A stretch of DNA of 21,134 bases from a virus. A model generated the notes under the pieces. That model was not told the DNA's origin. It searched no databases and saw nothing but the letters and a program-made list of their open reading frames with translations. Positions 4,381-20,671 of the stretch are shown one piece after another; within the stretch, counting starts at the first letter, position 1, and each line of letters begins with the position of its first letter. The stretch lies in the IMG/VR virus record IMGVR_UViG_3300042691_043920, positions 1 through 21,134 of that record. One strand, given 5' to 3'. The position numbers were made by a program, and so were the translations under genes.

Positions 4381-5118
4381 CTATTTATTTTTTTGTATCC
4401 ACTCTATAAAATGACTAACTCTAGTATGGCACGATTCGTCTCCATAGCTAGAATCAGCCTTGTTGTCAGTTGCCAAAACACAAGAGTTTATACCAGCCAA
4501 TGCATCACCTATAAATAGACCACCTCCACTATCGCCGCTAGCTATAATAAACTCAAGAGACGTTCTATTCGGTTCGCTATGTTTTGAAGCTGTGCATACT
4601 AGTAAATCAGCATATGCTGTGTCTATTACGTTTGATCCTGCTCGTTTCTTGTCATCGGAAATTATCGCACCATTATTAAATGTTCCCGTCAATCCGTATC
4701 CAGACATACAACAAACTTTATTTACTTCATCTTTATCTTTATACAAAGTAGGGTAGAAACTAAGATTAAACGCTTCAAGTGAATACCCTATTGCTATGTC
4801 AGCAAAGCCAACTTTTTTTCTATCAAATTCTTTTGGGTAAACAAACTTATAAATAGCATAGTCTTTATTATTGATATTTAATATGCAAAATTTATTATTT
4901 TCTATAATATGAGCAGCAGTTAATATTCTATGATCGTCTATGGCTACTGCGGATGCGCTATACACATTTCCATTTGTTAAAACGCCCTTAAGCTTACCAA
5001 CACAATGAAAATCCTGGGCATATTTTATATACTGATTATCGTCTACCAGAGGATCTATTGTCCCTCCATAGCAATAGGAGAAATTAATTACGCTTATCAG
5101 TAATACTAATCTTAACAT
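4381..5118 (-). CDS. Secreted trypsin-like (S1) serine protease
   Basis: 245 residues. The N-terminus MLRLVLLISVINFSYC is a short signal peptide with no convincing lipobox, so export and cleavage by signal peptidase I is expected. The catalytic triad is complete: His70 in LTAAH, Asp107 in ADIAIG, and Ser197 in SGDSGGG. Several cysteines (39, 78, 136, 137, 175, 213, 230) could form the disulfides usual in this fold, consistent with action outside the cytoplasm. The length is normal for a bare S1 domain with no long propeptide. It starts 5 nt after the stop of the subtilisin gene, so the two proteases are probably co-transcribed. Trypsin-like secreted proteases are unusual cargo in a phage-like region. 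The target is unknown. Confidence 0.85.
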   Translation of the reverse strand: MLRLVLLISVINFSYCYGGTIDPLVDDNQYIKYAQDFHCVGKLKGVLTNGNVYSASAVAIDDHRILTAAHIIENNKFCILNINNKDYAIYKFVYPKEFDRKKVGFADIAIGYSLEAFNLSFYPTLYKDKDEVNKVCCMSGYGLTGTFNNGAIISDDKKRAGSNVIDTAYADLLVCTASKHSEPNRTSLEFIIASGDSGGGLFIGDALAGINSCVLATDNKADSSYGDESCHTRVSHFIEWIQKNK

Positions 5119-5123
5119 CTTAA

Positions 5124-6047
5124 TCAGATAGGATGAATAATTCCGTACCCTTCGTATTTTTTCTGATTTGCATATCTTGTATCGGTTAAGTGCAAAGCAT
5201 TATTTTTGAAAAGATTAATATAATCTTCGTAAGTTTTCAGGCTATGAGACATACCATTTTTTTTATACAAACTTAATGCTAAACAAGCACAACCTACCGC
5301 AAACGGATTACTCATGCTTGTTCCACTCATTATAGCATACTGATTCCCTGGTACGCAACTTAAAATTTCATGACCCGGAGCGAGAAAATCTAATGTTTCT
5401 CCGCTACAAGTAAAATTAGTTCGTTTTAGATCCCTGTCAACTGCTCCTATCGCTATAGTGTTGTCGCATTTAGCAGGATACATTATGTCTACATCTTCGC
5501 CATTGTTTCCTGCGGCGCAAAATATTATAGAGCCTTTGGAATAAGCATACGCTACTGCTTCTTCTAAATCTCTTGTGGTGTTAGGTGATCCCAAACTCAT
5601 TGTTATAAAATCTACACCTTGATCGGCACTCCAGATAATACCATTAACTATAGAAGAGATGTTTCCTGAACCTCTCCTATCTAAAGCTTTTACCGGAATA
5701 ATTTTAGCTTTAGGAGCAACTCCAGCTATTCCAGTATCATTATTACATGCTGCTATAGTACCCGCAACATGACTACCGTGACCATTATCATCCATTGGAG
5801 GAGAATTAATATCTACAAAATTTTTACCTTCTAATAAATTTGCTTGTAAATCTACATGATTAAGATCACAGCCAGTATCTATAACAGCAACAACAGTATT
5901 TTCACCCTGAGACTTTCTCCACTTATCGGGAATATTAAACTTTTTAAGTTCCCAACCATATATTTGTGCGGTGTCCGGAGTTAATCCAAAAACATCCTCA
6001 CGAACATGGGGAAGAAGACCTACTTTATTTTTTCTAGTACGACTCAT
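5124..6047 (-). CDS. Subtilisin-like (S8) serine protease, no signal peptide
   Basis: 307 residues. The catalytic residues are clear: Asp57 in VAVIDTGCD, His90 in NGHGSHVAG, and Ser244 in SGTSMSNP, with Asn181 in AAGNNG as the oxyanion residue. The N-terminus has no signal peptide and only a very short leader before the catalytic domain, resembling intracellular subtilisins rather than secreted pre-pro enzymes. The ATG at 6047 has no obvious Shine-Dalgarno site. It is the first gene of the leftward run and sits 5 nt upstream of the trypsin-like gene. Possible roles are maturation of a virion protein, activation of the neighbouring protease, or attack on host proteins; none is shown by the sequence. 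Confidence 0.9.
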   Translation of the reverse strand: MSRTRKNKVGLLPHVREDVFGLTPDTAQIYGWELKKFNIPDKWRKSQGENTVVAVIDTGCDLNHVDLQANLLEGKNFVDINSPPMDDNGHGSHVAGTIAACNNDTGIAGVAPKAKIIPVKALDRRGSGNISSIVNGIIWSADQGVDFITMSLGSPNTTRDLEEAVAYAYSKGSIIFCAAGNNGEDVDIMYPAKCDNTIAIGAVDRDLKRTNFTCSGETLDFLAPGHEILSCVPGNQYAIMSGTSMSNPFAVGCACLALSLYKKNGMSHSLKTYEDYINLFKNNALHLTDTRYANQKKYEGYGIIHPI

Positions 6048-14597: not shown

Positions 14598-15596
14598 TTA
14601 TAAAACTTTTGATGCTATCAAACAACCCTTGCTTACAGAGTGTAAGGGGTCTGAGGCGTGTCTGACTACTCTAATAGGTAGCGGAAATCCATTCTCTTTT
14701 AACTTAATGTGAAAAGTTTCAACATAACCTTTAGCCAGAGATGTTCCGCCTGATATTACTACATCCAAAGGTTCTTTAAATTTGGGTAAAGATTTATGAT
14801 TACTAAGAGCGCTAGACAAATGCTTAGTTGTATAATCAATTAATCTCTCATAATATGATGAAACCGCACTAAGGATAGGATTTTCATTAGGTTCACCAAT
14901 AACAAATTGACCACCTTCTTTTTCTGCTTGTACAACACTATCCTTTTCACCTGTTGCTACAGCACTCATTCTATCAACCCAGTCACCAGACTTGGTGGTG
15001 CTAAATACTACTGTTGGTTCACCATTTAACATAACGCACACGTTGGTCATACCGGCTCCGCAACTAACCGAGACACCGGTATAGTCATTGTTATCTAATT
15101 CGGCATACGCTAATGCTTCTGCTTCATTTATAGAACGAGCATCATAACCACATTCGGCTAATACTGTTTTAACAACATCTTCGTGATATCCAACATCAAA
15201 ATCCTCATCTTCTTGATCTACTGGTTGAGCAGGAACGCAGAATACTAATTTTTCGCCGGGTTCCGATGCTGTTCCGACTACTTCTTTCAGAATAAAGGCT
15301 AATACTCTTTTCGCATCTTTTTCTTTTGCAGACACTACTCCTCTATGCATTGGTCTTTTAGCATTATCATTGCGCTCTATAGCTTTTTCAATAGCGTCTT
15401 TACCCAATAAAATAAATGAACCATCACTATCTTTTATGAAAACTTTTCCAGCTAATCCTTTTTCAATCATTTTTGTAGCTACTGGAGTAGTTGGTTTGAT
15501 AATATAAAAAGCGTCTCTAAAATCTTTATAAGTTATACCGTCATTGTTTTCTTGAGATAAAACAATATAACTTGTACCAACATCTAAACCCTTCAT
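14598..15596 (-). CDS. Actin-like ATPase (ParM/MreB/Hsp70 superfamily)
   Basis: 332 residues. The actin-fold nucleotide motifs are in order: phosphate-1 GLDVGTSY (3-10), connect-like INEAEALAYAE (156-166), phosphate-2 VSCGAGMTNV (177-186), and the adenosine motif VVISGGTSLAKG (279-290), followed by a C-terminal SKGCLIAS helix. Phosphate-2 is unusual: the Asp that normally starts D-x-GGG-T is replaced by Ser/Cys, while the GDWVD segment (204-208) is retained. Known family roles are filament formation for DNA partition, positioning or cell shape. The start has an AAAGGG ribosome site and lies 1 nt after the stop of a small membrane protein gene, forming a two-gene operon. The gene looks less AT-rich than its neighbours. 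The specific subfamily is not assigned. Confidence 0.8.
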   Translation of the reverse strand: MKGLDVGTSYIVLSQENNDGITYKDFRDAFYIIKPTTPVATKMIEKGLAGKVFIKDSDGSFILLGKDAIEKAIERNDNAKRPMHRGVVSAKEKDAKRVLAFILKEVVGTASEPGEKLVFCVPAQPVDQEDEDFDVGYHEDVVKTVLAECGYDARSINEAEALAYAELDNNDYTGVSVSCGAGMTNVCVMLNGEPTVVFSTTKSGDWVDRMSAVATGEKDSVVQAEKEGGQFVIGEPNENPILSAVSSYYERLIDYTTKHLSSALSNHKSLPKFKEPLDVVISGGTSLAKGYVETFHIKLKENGFPLPIRVVRHASDPLHSVSKGCLIASKVL

Positions 15597-16030: not shown

Positions 16031-17320
16031 ATGATCAAGTCATACGTTATTAGTTTAAAAAACAGGCCAGAGAGGCTTGAGTCTTTTTTAAATAGCCTCC
16101 CGTCTGACTGGCAATATGAGCGTCCGATTGTATACGACGCGATAAACGGCAAATTATCTGATCCTCCATCTTGGTGGAAAGAAGGAAAAGGTCCGTGGGG
16201 ATGTTATAAGAGTCATCTCAATATTATAGAAAATCATATTAATACAGAGTCTACTGATGATCTATTGCTATTAGAAGATGATGTAATGTTTTGTAATAAT
16301 TTTAATGATGAGTTAAAAAATTTCTTAGAAAAAGTACCACAGGATGCTGATCAAATTTATCTTGGTGGACAACATTTAGCTCCACCCATAGAAATCAATG
16401 ATCTTGTTGTTAGAGGATCTAACGTAAATAGAACACATGCATATATCATAACTCAAAAAGGTCTTAAAAAAATATATCAGTTTTTAAACGAGACTACAAC
16501 TTGGATAGCAAGAAATCATATAGATTATCATTATGGATCATATCATATAAATAATAAAATTATTGCATACTGTCCCCGTAAGTGGTTATGTGGTCAAAAG
16601 GGGGGATTTGTTTCTGATATCACCAACAAAGACGTAGAAGAAAGATGGTGGTCTCCCAACACTATTAATAGCTCGTTATTTGTTGTTGTATTAGGATTAC
16701 ACAGATCTGGATCGTCCTGTATATCCATGATGTTAAATAAACTCGGAGTCTATATGGGCGAGCCACTTATAGGCTATGAAAAGCGAGGCGGCGGAGAGGC
16801 TAAACCATTAGCACAAATATGTGAAGGAGCAGCACCATTTCCTTCTGCACAAATAAATATTGATCCAAAAATATTAGAACAAAAATTATACGATTGGATT
16901 AATGGACAAAGAATTAAAGCAGCGTATGGTAGGACGATATCTGGTGGTAAATATCCTCATCTTTGTGCTATGCAACAACCTTTAACTACTATCCTGGGTG
17001 ATAAACTAAGAGTCATTCATTGTGATAGACCATTGGAAGATTCTATTGATTCTTTAAAACGAAGAAGCAGAAGTAGCCAAGGTTGGTTAAATGCCTCTGA
17101 AGAACAGTGTGAGAATGTTCAAAAATGGTTATGGGAAGAAAAAAATAAATTCTTATCCAGCATGAGCAACGATCATGTATTACATATCAAATATTCTGAT
17201 CTTTTCGCTGACGCTCAAGGTGTCGTGACTAATATGATTAAGTTTCTTGGAATTAATCCATCACAAGAACAAATTGATAATGCTATTACTCATGTGGATA
17301 AAAATGAATTATCGTCCTAG
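16031..17320 (+). CDS. GT25 glycosyltransferase-sulfotransferase fusion
   Basis: 429 residues with two domains. Residues 1-200 match GT25 (LPS/collagen galactosyltransferase type): SYVISLKNRPERLESF (4-19), VYDAINGK (34-41), GPWGCYKSHL (54-63), and LLLEDDVMF (79-87) with the catalytic acidic site E82-D83-D84. Residues about 215-425 match a PAPS-dependent sulfotransferase: VVLGLHRSGSSCISMML (220-236) is the 5'-phosphosulfate loop, and HCDRPLEDSIDSLKRR (about 334-349) resembles the 3'-phosphate-binding segment. The combination suggests a sugar is added and then sulfated, or that two linked steps share a substrate. There is no signal peptide. The gene stands alone on its strand and its TAG overlaps the stop of the convergent RuvB gene in CTAG. 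Confidence 0.85.
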   Translation: MIKSYVISLKNRPERLESFLNSLPSDWQYERPIVYDAINGKLSDPPSWWKEGKGPWGCYKSHLNIIENHINTESTDDLLLLEDDVMFCNNFNDELKNFLEKVPQDADQIYLGGQHLAPPIEINDLVVRGSNVNRTHAYIITQKGLKKIYQFLNETTTWIARNHIDYHYGSYHINNKIIAYCPRKWLCGQKGGFVSDITNKDVEERWWSPNTINSSLFVVVLGLHRSGSSCISMMLNKLGVYMGEPLIGYEKRGGGEAKPLAQICEGAAPFPSAQINIDPKILEQKLYDWINGQRIKAAYGRTISGGKYPHLCAMQQPLTTILGDKLRVIHCDRPLEDSIDSLKRRSRSSQGWLNASEEQCENVQKWLWEEKNKFLSSMSNDHVLHIKYSDLFADAQGVVTNMIKFLGINPSQEQIDNAITHVDKNELSS

Positions 17321-18210
17321 ATTTTTAGAGATGATAGTATCCTTCCTTTTGATGTTCTAATAACAAGACCCTTTCTAATCATATACGGCTCTATACTATT
17401 CTCTATTGTTTCTATTGAAATCCCCGTCATAGAAGATATAGCCTTAAGACCCAATGGTGATCCTTTTGATTTTCTAAGAATATCTAGATACATTCTATCA
17501 TAAATATCCAAACCCATATTATCAATACCTTGTGCTTCAAAGATCACATCATAATTATCTTCTAAAGGATTACAGATCTTGTAATTTTTATACCATAGCA
17601 ATCTACTATTGAGAATTCTTGGAGTACCCTTACTTCGTTTAGCAATTTCTAAGAGACCTTGATCGTCTATGACTATTCCCATCTTAATCGAATTCGATCC
17701 GGCTAGTTTGGCTAACTCATTATCGCTATAAAAAGTAAGATGTTCTTTGATAGTGAATCTATCATAGAATGGCTGACTTAAACTACCACCACTAGTTGTT
17801 GCACCAACCAAAGTAAACGGAGGAATATCAATTTTTTCCGGTTCCTTATCAAGAATAATATTTAGAACAAAATCTTCCATTACCGGATACAAAAACTCTT
17901 CTACGATTTTTGGTAAACGATGAATCTCGTCTATAAATAGAACTGAGTTTCTTGAGATATTCATTAGGTACGGTAGAATATTTTTGACGCTTCGTATATT
18001 AGCCGCATTTGTTGTGTATAAGTTAACACCTAATTCGTGAGCAATAGCGTTTGCCACTGTTGTCTTACCAAGCCCCGGCGGGCCGTCTATTAAAACATGG
18101 GGTAGGGTGGCACTGGCGCTTTTACAACCGGCCACAGAGACTCGTAGCCTGCCTATAACGTCGCTCTGACCAGTTATCTCATCAAAGCAAACCGGACGAA
18201 TGTTACTCAT
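17317..18210 (-). CDS. ruvB: RuvB-like Holliday junction branch-migration ATPase
   Basis: 297 residues from ATG 18210, selected because GGAGG precedes it; an upstream TTG would add only four residues. AAA+ signatures in order are Walker A GPPGLGKTT (43-51), Walker B VLFIDEIH (90-97), sensor-1 LVGATT with the following SGGSLSQPFYDRF (Arg finger in DRF), and sensor-2 GTPRILNSRLL. The C-terminal winged helix (GSPLGLKAISSM ... IEPYMIRKGLVIRT) is the RuvB-specific DNA-binding domain. It is slightly shorter than cellular RuvB (about 335 residues). RuvB drives Holliday junction migration as a hexamer with RuvA; no full RuvA lies in this window. The start overlaps the previous gene (ATGAGTAA), which encodes a RuvA C-terminal-like domain. 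Confidence 0.9.
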   Translation of the reverse strand: MSNIRPVCFDEITGQSDVIGRLRVSVAGCKSASATLPHVLIDGPPGLGKTTVANAIAHELGVNLYTTNAANIRSVKNILPYLMNISRNSVLFIDEIHRLPKIVEEFLYPVMEDFVLNIILDKEPEKIDIPPFTLVGATTSGGSLSQPFYDRFTIKEHLTFYSDNELAKLAGSNSIKMGIVIDDQGLLEIAKRSKGTPRILNSRLLWYKNYKICNPLEDNYDVIFEAQGIDNMGLDIYDRMYLDILRKSKGSPLGLKAISSMTGISIETIENSIEPYMIRKGLVIRTSKGRILSSLKI

Positions 18211-18664
18211 TTGATCCTCCAAAAGATTTTAGTGCGTGTTTAATTAATTGACCACAATCATTAGACTGAAGAATAGAATAAGCCTTATTAACTAATTCTA
18301 TTGACTCAGATTCTGTAAATCCATAATCGACCAATATGCTAGTGCATTTATTTAGCGTTATCTGTTCTACTTGTTCCGGCGTTGACAATTCCTTATCTAA
18401 GTTAGTATCTGATTGATTTTGAACGACGGTTTGATTATCAATTGTATTTTTGACTTTTACAGGATCGTCTGCGTATTGTATTTTAAGTTTAACAATTCTT
18501 TTTGGTTTAAAAACTTTTGAACAATGACAGACTATTTTGAAATTTTTTGTTTTAGCCTCATTCAAAGATATCCAATGATCACAAGAACACTTAGGACACT
18601 TATATTTGAAATGAGCGTCAATCTCAATCGGTTTCTGGTTTTTCTTCTGTTTTATTTTTGTCAT
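18203..18664 (-). CDS. Zinc-ribbon protein with RuvA domain-III-like C-terminus
   Basis: 153 residues. The N-terminal part has a zinc ribbon, CPKC (23-26) and CHC (46-48), in a basic context. A polar linker follows (about 65-100). Residues 106-149 (starting NKCTSILVDYGFTESES and ending QLIKHALKSFGG) match the three-helix C-terminal domain of RuvA: a G-[YF] turn after the first helix, then an S/E-rich helix, then L-I-x-x-AL-x-x. In cellular RuvA this domain III binds RuvB and controls its ATPase. The gene overlaps ruvB by 8 nt, so the products are coupled. It has none of the tetramer-forming OB-fold and HhH parts of RuvA. It overlaps the preceding gene by 41 nt. The interaction with RuvB is inferred. 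Confidence 0.65.
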   Translation of the reverse strand: MTKIKQKKNQKPIEIDAHFKYKCPKCSCDHWISLNEAKTKNFKIVCHCSKVFKPKRIVKLKIQYADDPVKVKNTIDNQTVVQNQSDTNLDKELSTPEQVEQITLNKCTSILVDYGFTESESIELVNKAYSILQSNDCGQLIKHALKSFGGSNE

Positions 18665-19046
18665 CTTTTACCCAAAATACAAAGTCATTAGAGTCTTCAT
18701 CAAAAGATGTTTCAACAAGACCTTTGTTTACCAAACCATGTAATAAATTACCAACTAATCTGTGATTTAGAGCATCTATCAATTTAACATACAAAGACTC
18801 AGAAATCAAGTATCTTTCTTCCGAAGTTTTTTTATTGATTTGTCGTTTTAATATCTCTTTTGCGATAAGAAATGACTCTTGATAAGATAGTGACCTATCG
18901 AATTCTTCTCTATCTTCTTCATGAATAAAATCTAGTGCAGAATCAGCGTAGTCTATGTTAGCGCTGCCAAGAGAATTGAATACTAATGCTCTGGTAGAAT
19001 TTATAAAACTTGTTAAATCTTCTACAATATACCAGTCTTTTTTCAT
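18624..19046 (-). CDS. Hypothetical protein (140 aa), possible winged-helix
   Basis: 140 residues behind a TAGGA ribosome site. The N-terminus is acidic and helix-rich (DWYIVEDLTSFINSTRALVF, then DFIHEEDREEFDR). A Lys-rich middle segment leads to HRLVGNLLHGLVNKGLVETSF followed by DFVFWV. That end resembles the helix-and-wing of a small winged-helix domain in which a helix reading LVNKGLVE meets a beta hairpin. No family is recognised with confidence. It sits between the primase run and the zinc-ribbon/RuvB pair, so a replication or recombination accessory role is plausible. Confidence 0.55.
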   Translation of the reverse strand: MKKDWYIVEDLTSFINSTRALVFNSLGSANIDYADSALDFIHEEDREEFDRSLSYQESFLIAKEILKRQINKKTSEERYLISESLYVKLIDALNHRLVGNLLHGLVNKGLVETSFDEDSNDFVFWVKDDKNKTEEKPETD

Positions 19047-19059
19047 AAAATTCCTATAT

Positions 19060-19458
19060 CTAGTTTAGTATATCAAACATTCCCTTGTAATATGTAGGCT
19101 GGTTGACAAAATGTTTAGCGTGAGACTGTAGGTGTAGAACATATTCTGTATTAATTTTATTAATAGCGAAGTATTTGATTTTCCATATTGGAGAACCTTG
19201 ATAATTGGACCCCAAATACTGGAGACTATTGCCCCCAGTATTGGGATTCCAACTACTCACAGGAAACATTTTATTTGACATATCATTGGTATTAAAATCA
19301 TTTTTAAGCATATCCTGAATTATATTATCTACCCAATTTGAGATCGGGGTATTAGGACCAAAATCAAATTTATAATACCATTGATACGGATTCAATGATG
19401 GATGATCATAGTCATGCTCATCATCGTCTTCATAATTATCTTCGTAATCTTCGTGCAT
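19060..19458 (-). CDS. Hypothetical protein with acidic N-terminus (132 aa)
   Basis: 132 residues. The first ~20 are almost all Asp, Glu, Tyr and His (HEDYEDNYEDDDEHDYDHP). The rest is aromatic and beta-rich, with QWYYKFDFGPNTPISNW, then SPIWKIKYFAINK and QSHAKHFV. It starts 1 nt after the primase stop with an AGG ribosome site, so it is co-translated with the primase. I do not recognise a family. The acidic tail could act as a DNA mimic or protein-docking tail; that is only a guess. Confidence 0.55.
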   Translation of the reverse strand: MHEDYEDNYEDDDEHDYDHPSLNPYQWYYKFDFGPNTPISNWVDNIIQDMLKNDFNTNDMSNKMFPVSSWNPNTGGNSLQYLGSNYQGSPIWKIKYFAINKINTEYVLHLQSHAKHFVNQPTYYKGMFDILN

Positions 19459-19459
19459 T

Positions 19460-20599
19460 TTAACCTATGCAAAACTTGTCACTAATTTGATTAGCAAGGT
19501 CTTTTGCCGCACTACTTAGGAATCTGTTATTACTAAAGTATAGCGGTGTGCTGACTTGGTTAAGGAACTCGACCACGGTTTTTAAAAGTTTGGTCTGTGA
19601 CCCATCAAGGTTTATATCCTCGTCATGGATCGTATCCTGCGATGGTATATGACCAGTATAGACCGGCATCGGATCACCATAAGCAACACCGGAAGGAACA
19701 TCGTTGTCATCCAGATTATTTTTCAGATTATAAGTATTCCAATTGGTTTTATTATAATTCTTCCAAGCGTTAGGATTAGACTGTTGCATAGCATTGAGAA
19801 TATCAGTAGCGACATTTGCTGATACCGGAACGCCAGTAATATCAGACTGCTTATAAGCCTTGGCATATCCCTTGTACCATTCATCACTACATTTTTCAGG
19901 AATAATCTGTAGAGTTGCTGGTTGACCAGTAAGTGCCGCTTTAAGATCAGCAACATTTATTGGAGTGCCAGTGCTGCCGGGAAGGACGCTGGTAAAATAC
20001 GGAGCCTTGCCTTCCCAACATTTACGCCACCAAGTATACGGAACACGATAAATCTGGTTCGGTTTGATCGCTCTTGGATCACCATCAAAGTAATTTACCA
20101 GTTTCTTCTGCAAGCCGTTCCAGAATGTTTTATTTCCGCCAACAATCTTACGACTAGCATCATCAAAAATCCAGTAGCACTGATATCCATTACGAGTATC
20201 AATAACCCAACTAGGCTTTACTGGAAATTGATTGATCTTTTTTAGAAACTGCTTCTTCTTTGTCATTACAACACTAGGCTTAAAATACTTACCTTGATCA
20301 TCTCGCCCAGCATCCATATCGCAAAAACAGCAAGTAAATTGCTTAATCGCATACATTTTTCGACCACCGTTTACATAAAAGTAAACATCAGAATTATTGC
20401 TGATATTAGCGTCAAGTGCTTCCACCAAATTATCTGTATGATTCATGCTGCTAATTTTCTTGCGTGGGTTGCCATTATAGCAGTAGATATTTGTTTGTCT
20501 AAAAGAATTTAAAAAACGAAACCTAGCATCCAGCCATGTGCTGTCGTTAGGATCGCTGTTTTTTGCAAATGGGTTGAATCCAATATCATCACTAAACAT
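19460..20599 (-). CDS. RepB-like DNA primase (archaeo-eukaryotic primase superfamily)
   Basis: 379 residues from ATG 20599, preferred because AAGGA lies about 8 nt upstream; the ATG at 20617 has its AGGA too close. The catalytic layout of RepB-type primases is visible: FCDMDAG (92-98) with metal-binding D94 and D96, SWVIDTRNGYQCYW (130-143) with the conserved strand, and YFDGDPRAI (171-179) then YRVP (184-187) followed by a conserved WWRK. Phage proteins of this kind make primers for replication. A C-terminal region after about 220 has no recognised helicase motifs, so this is primase only. Its base composition is much less AT-rich than the glycosylation genes (30 of 60 bases G or C at 19921-19980). 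Confidence 0.82.
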   Translation of the reverse strand: MFSDDIGFNPFAKNSDPNDSTWLDARFRFLNSFRQTNIYCYNGNPRKKISSMNHTDNLVEALDANISNNSDVYFYVNGGRKMYAIKQFTCCFCDMDAGRDDQGKYFKPSVVMTKKKQFLKKINQFPVKPSWVIDTRNGYQCYWIFDDASRKIVGGNKTFWNGLQKKLVNYFDGDPRAIKPNQIYRVPYTWWRKCWEGKAPYFTSVLPGSTGTPINVADLKAALTGQPATLQIIPEKCSDEWYKGYAKAYKQSDITGVPVSANVATDILNAMQQSNPNAWKNYNKTNWNTYNLKNNLDDNDVPSGVAYGDPMPVYTGHIPSQDTIHDEDINLDGSQTKLLKTVVEFLNQVSTPLYFSNNRFLSSAAKDLANQISDKFCIG

Positions 20600-20671
20600 A
20601 ATACTTTCCTTCGTCATTCCTATAAACAGATACCGGGATAATAAACATTACTATCATAATCAGTATCAAAA

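Follow-up and report, generated by a model that had tools for sequence, protein, structure and literature searches.

RuvAB is a textbook motor, and RuvB is understood mainly in the company of RuvA as its loader. What, then, might a bacterial virus be doing with a ruvB gene whose upstream neighbor encodes a zinc ribbon joined to what looks like the last domain of RuvA? The question is raised by a 21,134-base virus record (IMGVR_UViG_3300042691_043920), which we analyzed over its whole length and refer to here as the window. In bacterial RuvA, a DNA-binding head and domain III are joined by a flexible 15-residue linker, and it is domain III that binds a protruding hairpin of RuvB, L135-L152 in E. 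coli (PMC2628435). The RuvB motor and the docking domain are known already, and what is new is the zinc-ribbon head and the combination. No description of a phage RuvB with a domain III adaptor was found in the literature searched, subscription papers and preprints lying outside that search.

Results

Organization of the gene string

A string of genes with overlaps or very short gaps runs along the minus strand of the window: a primase-like gene of 385 aa (19460..20617), a gene of 132 aa (19060..19458), a gene of 140 aa (18624..19046), the 153-aa adaptor gene (18203..18664), and finally ruvB itself (17317..18210, 297 aa). The RuvB-like open reading frame as listed spans 17317-18222(-), beginning at an upstream TTG at 18222; however, the start is best placed at the ATG at 18210 (MSNIRP...), because a GGAGG Shine-Dalgarno sequence lies at 18216-18220(-), within the 3' end of the adaptor gene, and the TTG overlaps that site. 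Since the adaptor stop codon occupies 18203-18205, the two genes overlap by 8 nt (ATGAGTAA), a figure already given in the initial annotation and exact once the ATG at 18210 is taken as the start. At its other end, the adaptor gene shares 41 nt with the 140-aa gene that precedes it.

The 385-aa protein at the head of the cluster resembles primases of the RepB/PrimPol type: RepB_primase was weakly matched by 11 of the 20 members of its family, at best with E 0.0069, and across the family the motif DTRNGYQCYW is invariant and DMDAGRD nearly so. The phages in which it holds this position also encode a DnaG-type primase. The conserved 132-aa gene is found upstream in relatives too. The 140-aa protein is likewise conserved, with R19, R96, N100, D116, N120, D121, F122, F124 and W125 invariant in its family alignment; searches with it gave no confident match, only weak winged-helix-like or MarR-like ones, and together with an AF2 model these suggest that it is possibly a winged-helix protein, which may be a further subunit.

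A complete RuvB with a shortened docking hairpin

The 297-aa protein carries the full RuvB architecture in one chain, with RuvB_N covering the AAA+ P-loop domain (7e-48), AAA_lid_4 (the RuvB lid) and the C-terminal RuvB_C winged helix (4e-19) all above the Pfam cut-offs. Its 18 closest PDB sequences are without exception RuvB, the best at an E-value of about 4e-65, and the other AAA+ proteins behind them score no better than 1e-11. Against bacterial RuvB the identity amounts to 37-42% (E. coli), and the best cellular non-phage match reaches 45%. At least 111 IMG/VR contigs carry a relative, and identities are 64-78% for the best 80 of them.

Among 59 distinct viral RuvBs the catalytic residues are invariant (in E. 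coli numbers): K68 of Walker A, D113/E114 of Walker B, sensor 1, the arginine finger R174, E131/D132, and R221 of GTPR. The minor-groove DNA-contact motif reads RTxKGR or RTxRGR (RTx[K/R]GR), to be compared with R-T-P-R-G-R in the DNA-binding hairpin of RuvB, and both outer arginines are invariant in the same 59 sequences. What these catalytic and DNA-contact residues do in RuvB is described in PMC9477746 and PMC10071043, the latter also giving the role of the minor-groove hairpin arginines. Judged by its sequence, then, the ORF at 17317-18210(-) is a complete, genuine RuvB.

The presensor-1 beta-hairpin, on which RuvA docks (17824..17865, minus strand), is present but four residues shorter than in bacterial RuvB, as alignments to PDB RuvBs show. 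The equivalents of A145-I148, including the I148 position, are absent from 59/59 viral RuvBs, and I150 is invariant. Because the docking hairpin is shortened in every member, any interface with a domain III must differ in detail from the bacterial one.

The adaptor: zinc ribbon, linker and RuvA domain III

Single-sequence searches with the 153-aa protein of the window found no match in the PDB, the viral scan or the phage records, so a family alignment was needed. The adaptor pattern scan was seeded from a narrow alignment (A3), and the broad alignment (A1) holds 45 members. In the AlphaFold2 model (mean pLDDT 84.5), the zinc ribbon and the three-helix domain lie mostly above 95, and the linker that joins them, which is acidic and flexible, is disordered.

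The zinc ribbon comprises residues 11-64 (18473..18634, minus strand). Its ligands C23, C26, C46 and C48 are invariant among the 45 members, as are G115 and E120 further along the chain, and H30-W31 is conserved. Residues 1-65 form a basic head with a net charge of about +12.7 in the window, the family mean being +6.5; the spread among members, from -3 to +13, counts against the role that we propose for this head below. With the whole adaptor as query, the ribbon is weakly similar to Adventurous gliding motility protein X (7zok, E=0.04) in a profile search of the PDB and to the ZitP zinc finger (Z 3.2) in VIA-align. Neither the OB-fold domain I (RuvA_N) nor the HhH domain II was found in the adaptor by the Pfam scan, and the protein is therefore not a RuvA.

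The C-terminal segment, residues 101-149 (18218..18364, minus strand), gave a different picture. Its three helices, residues 101-148, are modeled with a mean pLDDT above 90. When the adaptor-family profile was run against 177,635 PDB sequences (hmmsearch), the best match was RuvA 1ixs_A (E=4e-4), followed by 1ixr (E=1.6e-3), both of them from Thermus structures of RuvA domain III bound to RuvB; RuvA made up the majority of the top eight matches, and all aligned on the C-terminal segment. Likewise, RuvA_C was the Pfam family matched by most adaptor members (12/45), and the RuvA_C model, run over 15 viral contigs (1.8 Mb), gave two matches, at E-values of 1e-4 and 7e-4 and below the curated cut-off, which fall exactly at the ends of adaptor genes and nowhere else. 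Profile-profile alignment with hhalign placed the same C-terminal segment on an Armatimonadetes RuvA with E=4e-6 and, more weakly, on a planctomycetal RuvA with E=0.0015, while two unrelated proteins of the window, used as negative controls, stayed above 0.5. In structure searches with the adaptor model, the ten best Foldseek rows against the PDB were all RuvA, with the weak E-values (0.3-1.8) expected of a domain of only ~50 residues, and VIA-align returned RuvA domain III at ranks 1-13 (Z 6.0-7.7, 46-52 residues, 1.2-2.1 A).

A UBA identity for this segment was considered and rejected: UBA domains rank below RuvA domain III in VIA-align with Z 4.8 or less, no UBA chain appeared in the adaptor profile search of the PDB, and no UBA family was among the 25 most-matched Pfam families.

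In E. coli RuvA, the substitutions L167A/L170A abolish RuvB activity in vivo and leave junction binding unaffected (PMC2628435). The equivalent positions in the adaptor are L111, which is leucine in 91% of members and methionine in 9%, and Y114, which is tyrosine in 86%, leucine in 12% and phenylalanine in 2%, so that both are still hydrophobic. It is the conservation of these contact residues that speaks for a putative interface of the adaptor with RuvB; inter-protein coevolution with RuvB gave no clear signal with only 56 effective sequences. Set beside RuvA_C (Pfam PF07499, RuvA domain III), the last ~50 residues of the adaptor share its sequence and structure, the hydrophobic L167/L170 positions, and the conserved Gly-aromatic and Glu; they differ in a helix 2-3 region two residues longer, in being joined to a zinc ribbon, and in scoring under the Pfam gathering cut-off. 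By both the profile and the structural routes, the adaptor C-terminus is homologous to RuvA domain III. The initial annotation had described a CxxC...CxC zinc ribbon in this 153-aa protein and a three-helix C-terminus resembling RuvA domain III, and both descriptions are borne out, the one by four ligand cysteines invariant in 45 relatives and the other by profile and structural similarity.

Distribution and gene coupling

The adaptor gene lies directly upstream of ruvB in 79 of 81 RuvB loci, 75 recognized by pattern and 4 variants by eye. In the other direction, an independent search for the adaptor found that a RuvB P-loop comes next at 78 of 79 further loci; at the remaining one the contig runs out. 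The two RuvB loci that have no adaptor upstream are in a related contig of 229 kb (G001, loci L080/L086) and in L079. In G001 the neighboring genes and RuvB (54805-55707) are kept, the adaptor is found nowhere in the contig, and the 140-aa gene stops a short way ahead of ruvB, which looks like a clean loss of the adaptor. Since both of these loci have the same RuvB, that protein may work without the adaptor.

A scan of 84,980 cellular genomes yielded no confirmed adaptor, so a cellular origin or presence of the adaptor has no confirmed case. In the corresponding scan for RuvB, the gene string was found on two phage contigs (L201 and L203) binned into Bacteroidota metagenome bins, namely Flavobacteriales and Chitinophagia MAGs, and this binning hints weakly at Bacteroidota as hosts. 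As far as these surveys of sequence reach, the pair of RuvB and adaptor is virus-specific and conserved in a large group of uncultured bacterial viruses.

Replication and recombination genes of the related phages

A window of 21 kb is too short to judge whether RuvA is absent, so 14 longer related contigs were used as well, giving a set of 15 viral contigs (1.82 Mb, the longest 229 kb), all of which may be incomplete. RuvA_N had no match in the set, probably incomplete genomes, and neither did RuvC. The absence of a full RuvA that had been claimed for this system thus extends to 1.8 Mb of related contigs, probably incomplete genomes, in which no canonical ruvA was found. With that and the domain III similarity in hand, the overall reading of the initial annotation, a RuvB paired with a zinc-ribbon/domain III adaptor, is supported.

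An endonuclease VII-type nuclease is encoded in 9 of the 15 contigs, although homing-type enzymes may be among them. The phages also encode a split PolIII-alpha polymerase, a DnaB-like helicase, a primase and a UvsX-like recombinase, together with a RecB-like exonuclease, a proofreading exonuclease and RIIA/RIIB. The presence of PolIII alpha, helicase, recombinase and exonuclease makes recombination-linked replication plausible. In G001, the PolIII alpha gene is in two ORFs, and the ORF of the UvsX-like recombinase (L089:397-2442) seems to be interrupted by an intein-like insert.

Other genes of the window and its relatives

Several further genes were noted along the way. The one at 14598-15596 encodes a Volactin-family actin-like protein (Pfam E 6e-60) and, conserved, keeps its place just after ruvB in many relatives; the copy in one relative shares 34-38% identity with proteins from metagenomic phages of 485-595 kb. 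Between it and ruvB, and convergent with the latter, a single ORF (16031-17320) combines a GT25-type glycosyltransferase with a sulfotransferase domain. At 4381-6047 lie two adjacent ORFs that are protease-like by motif, one trypsin-like (TAAH...GDSGGG) and one subtilisin-like (DTG...NGHGSHVAG...GTSM), and the same pair is also adjacent in G001. The small protein at 3100-3693 matches the PHROG phosphatase family phrog_335 (E 1e-17). Finally, a highly conserved protein in G001 (L094:7954-8961; 85-87% identity between contigs) has a single match among phage records, to the Bacillus phage G major head protein (22% identity), which hints at a distant capsid relationship.

Discussion

The reading that we consider probable is that the RuvB motor works without RuvA and is tethered to DNA or to a phage protein by a zinc-ribbon head, with domain III as the link. 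The phage RuvB would be a hexameric DNA-translocase motor, and a dedicated adaptor would dock on it as RuvA does, with its RuvA domain III binding the presensor-1 hairpin and the helix alpha-3 face of RuvB. From there the flexible acidic linker would lead to the basic zinc ribbon, which would take the place of the junction-binding domains I and II of RuvA and most likely tether or load RuvB onto phage recombination or replication intermediates. Such intermediates could be four-way DNA, forked DNA or DNA that a phage protein has coated, and there RuvB would pump duplex DNA. In most of these phages the candidate resolvase would be the T4 endonuclease VII-type nuclease and not RuvC. The parts of this proposal differ in strength. 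That the adaptor docks on the phage RuvB through domain III is very likely; that the zinc ribbon is a targeting head, bringing RuvB to DNA or to a DNA-bound phage protein, is likely, and we infer that in doing so it replaces the RuvA tetramer as the recruiting module; on whether Holliday-junction branch migration is the main output of RuvB and adaptor, the scales are about level.

The comparison with bacterial RuvAB shows how much has been kept. Shared with it are a RuvB motor whose catalytic and DNA-contact residues are intact, a partner built in the RuvA order of head, flexible linker and RuvB-docking domain III, and adjacent genes; different are the phage partner, which has a zinc ribbon instead of domains I and II (OB fold, HhH), the docking hairpin of phage RuvB, shorter by four residues, and the lack of any RuvC found in the phage contigs. 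Host RuvA could take part, and one may go further and suppose that host RuvA is the partner of phage RuvB at Holliday junctions, the zinc-ribbon protein modulating the hybrid complex. No phage RuvA was found in the 15 contigs, cross-species complementation of RuvA and RuvB is mentioned in PMC9477746, and such cooperation is especially possible in the two relatives that have no adaptor (G001/L080 and L079); but all viral RuvBs examined have a shortened RuvA-docking hairpin, and host RuvA would face competition from the second domain III of the neighboring gene, which leaves this arrangement unlikely. That same competition could be the point if the adaptor served to inhibit host RuvAB or to act as a decoy for it, with domain III occupying host RuvB and keeping host RuvA off it while phage RuvB acts alone. 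A lone domain III could indeed compete with RuvA, and the contact residues of the adaptor are still RuvA-like; yet a decoy would not need a conserved zinc ribbon, and the near-absolute gene coupling and the translational overlap point to phage RuvB as the partner of the adaptor, so that we hold a decoy to be very improbable.

A further possibility is that the pair is a replication accessory, for instance a clamp-loader-like or helicase/primase-loading AAA+ system that replaces T4 gp44/62. This was raised by the PHROG matches, the best match of viral RuvB there being a clamp-loader family, and a search with T4 gp44 (phrog_168) gave one match per contig in 15/15 contigs, always ruvB, with no separate clamp loader found; moreover, the cluster is headed by a RepB-type primase-like gene. 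What T4 gp44/gp62 and other phage RFC-like AAA+ ATPases share with the viral RuvB is, however, the AAA+ fold, whereas the latter matches RuvB (E 4e-65) much better than it does clamp loaders and has the RuvB lid, the RuvB_C winged helix and the DNA-binding arginines, the winged helix and minor-groove arginines being absent from clamp loaders. A bacterial-type beta clamp (PF00712) was found in 0/15 contigs, PCNA/gp45-type clamps being outside that search, and a phage polymerase of the PolIII-alpha type could use the clamp and loader of its host. With no bacterial-type beta clamp found and the RuvB features intact, the clamp-loader reading loses weight, and we regard a replication accessory of this kind as quite unlikely.

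Returning to the tethered, RuvA-less motor, a bolder form of it can be put forward tentatively, as possible but a little short of an even prospect: a RuvA-independent, virus-specific RuvB machine, with domain III mounted on a zinc ribbon and an interface re-evolved around the shortened hairpin, would be aimed elsewhere than at the naked Holliday junction, for example at the phage replication fork or at a protein-coated recombination intermediate.

Phage-encoded parts of the cellular Holliday-junction system are also seen in the recombination sets of jumbo phages, which have RuvC without RuvB (PMC7824862); here we find the converse, RuvB and an adaptor without RuvC. That domain III has been kept while the junction-binding tetramer was discarded suggests a docking module that is transferable, and the system allows a direct test of what RuvA contributes to the motor, be it DNA specificity, ATPase stimulation or a mere tether. 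In short, the system suggests a textbook DNA-recombination machine re-plumbed by viruses.
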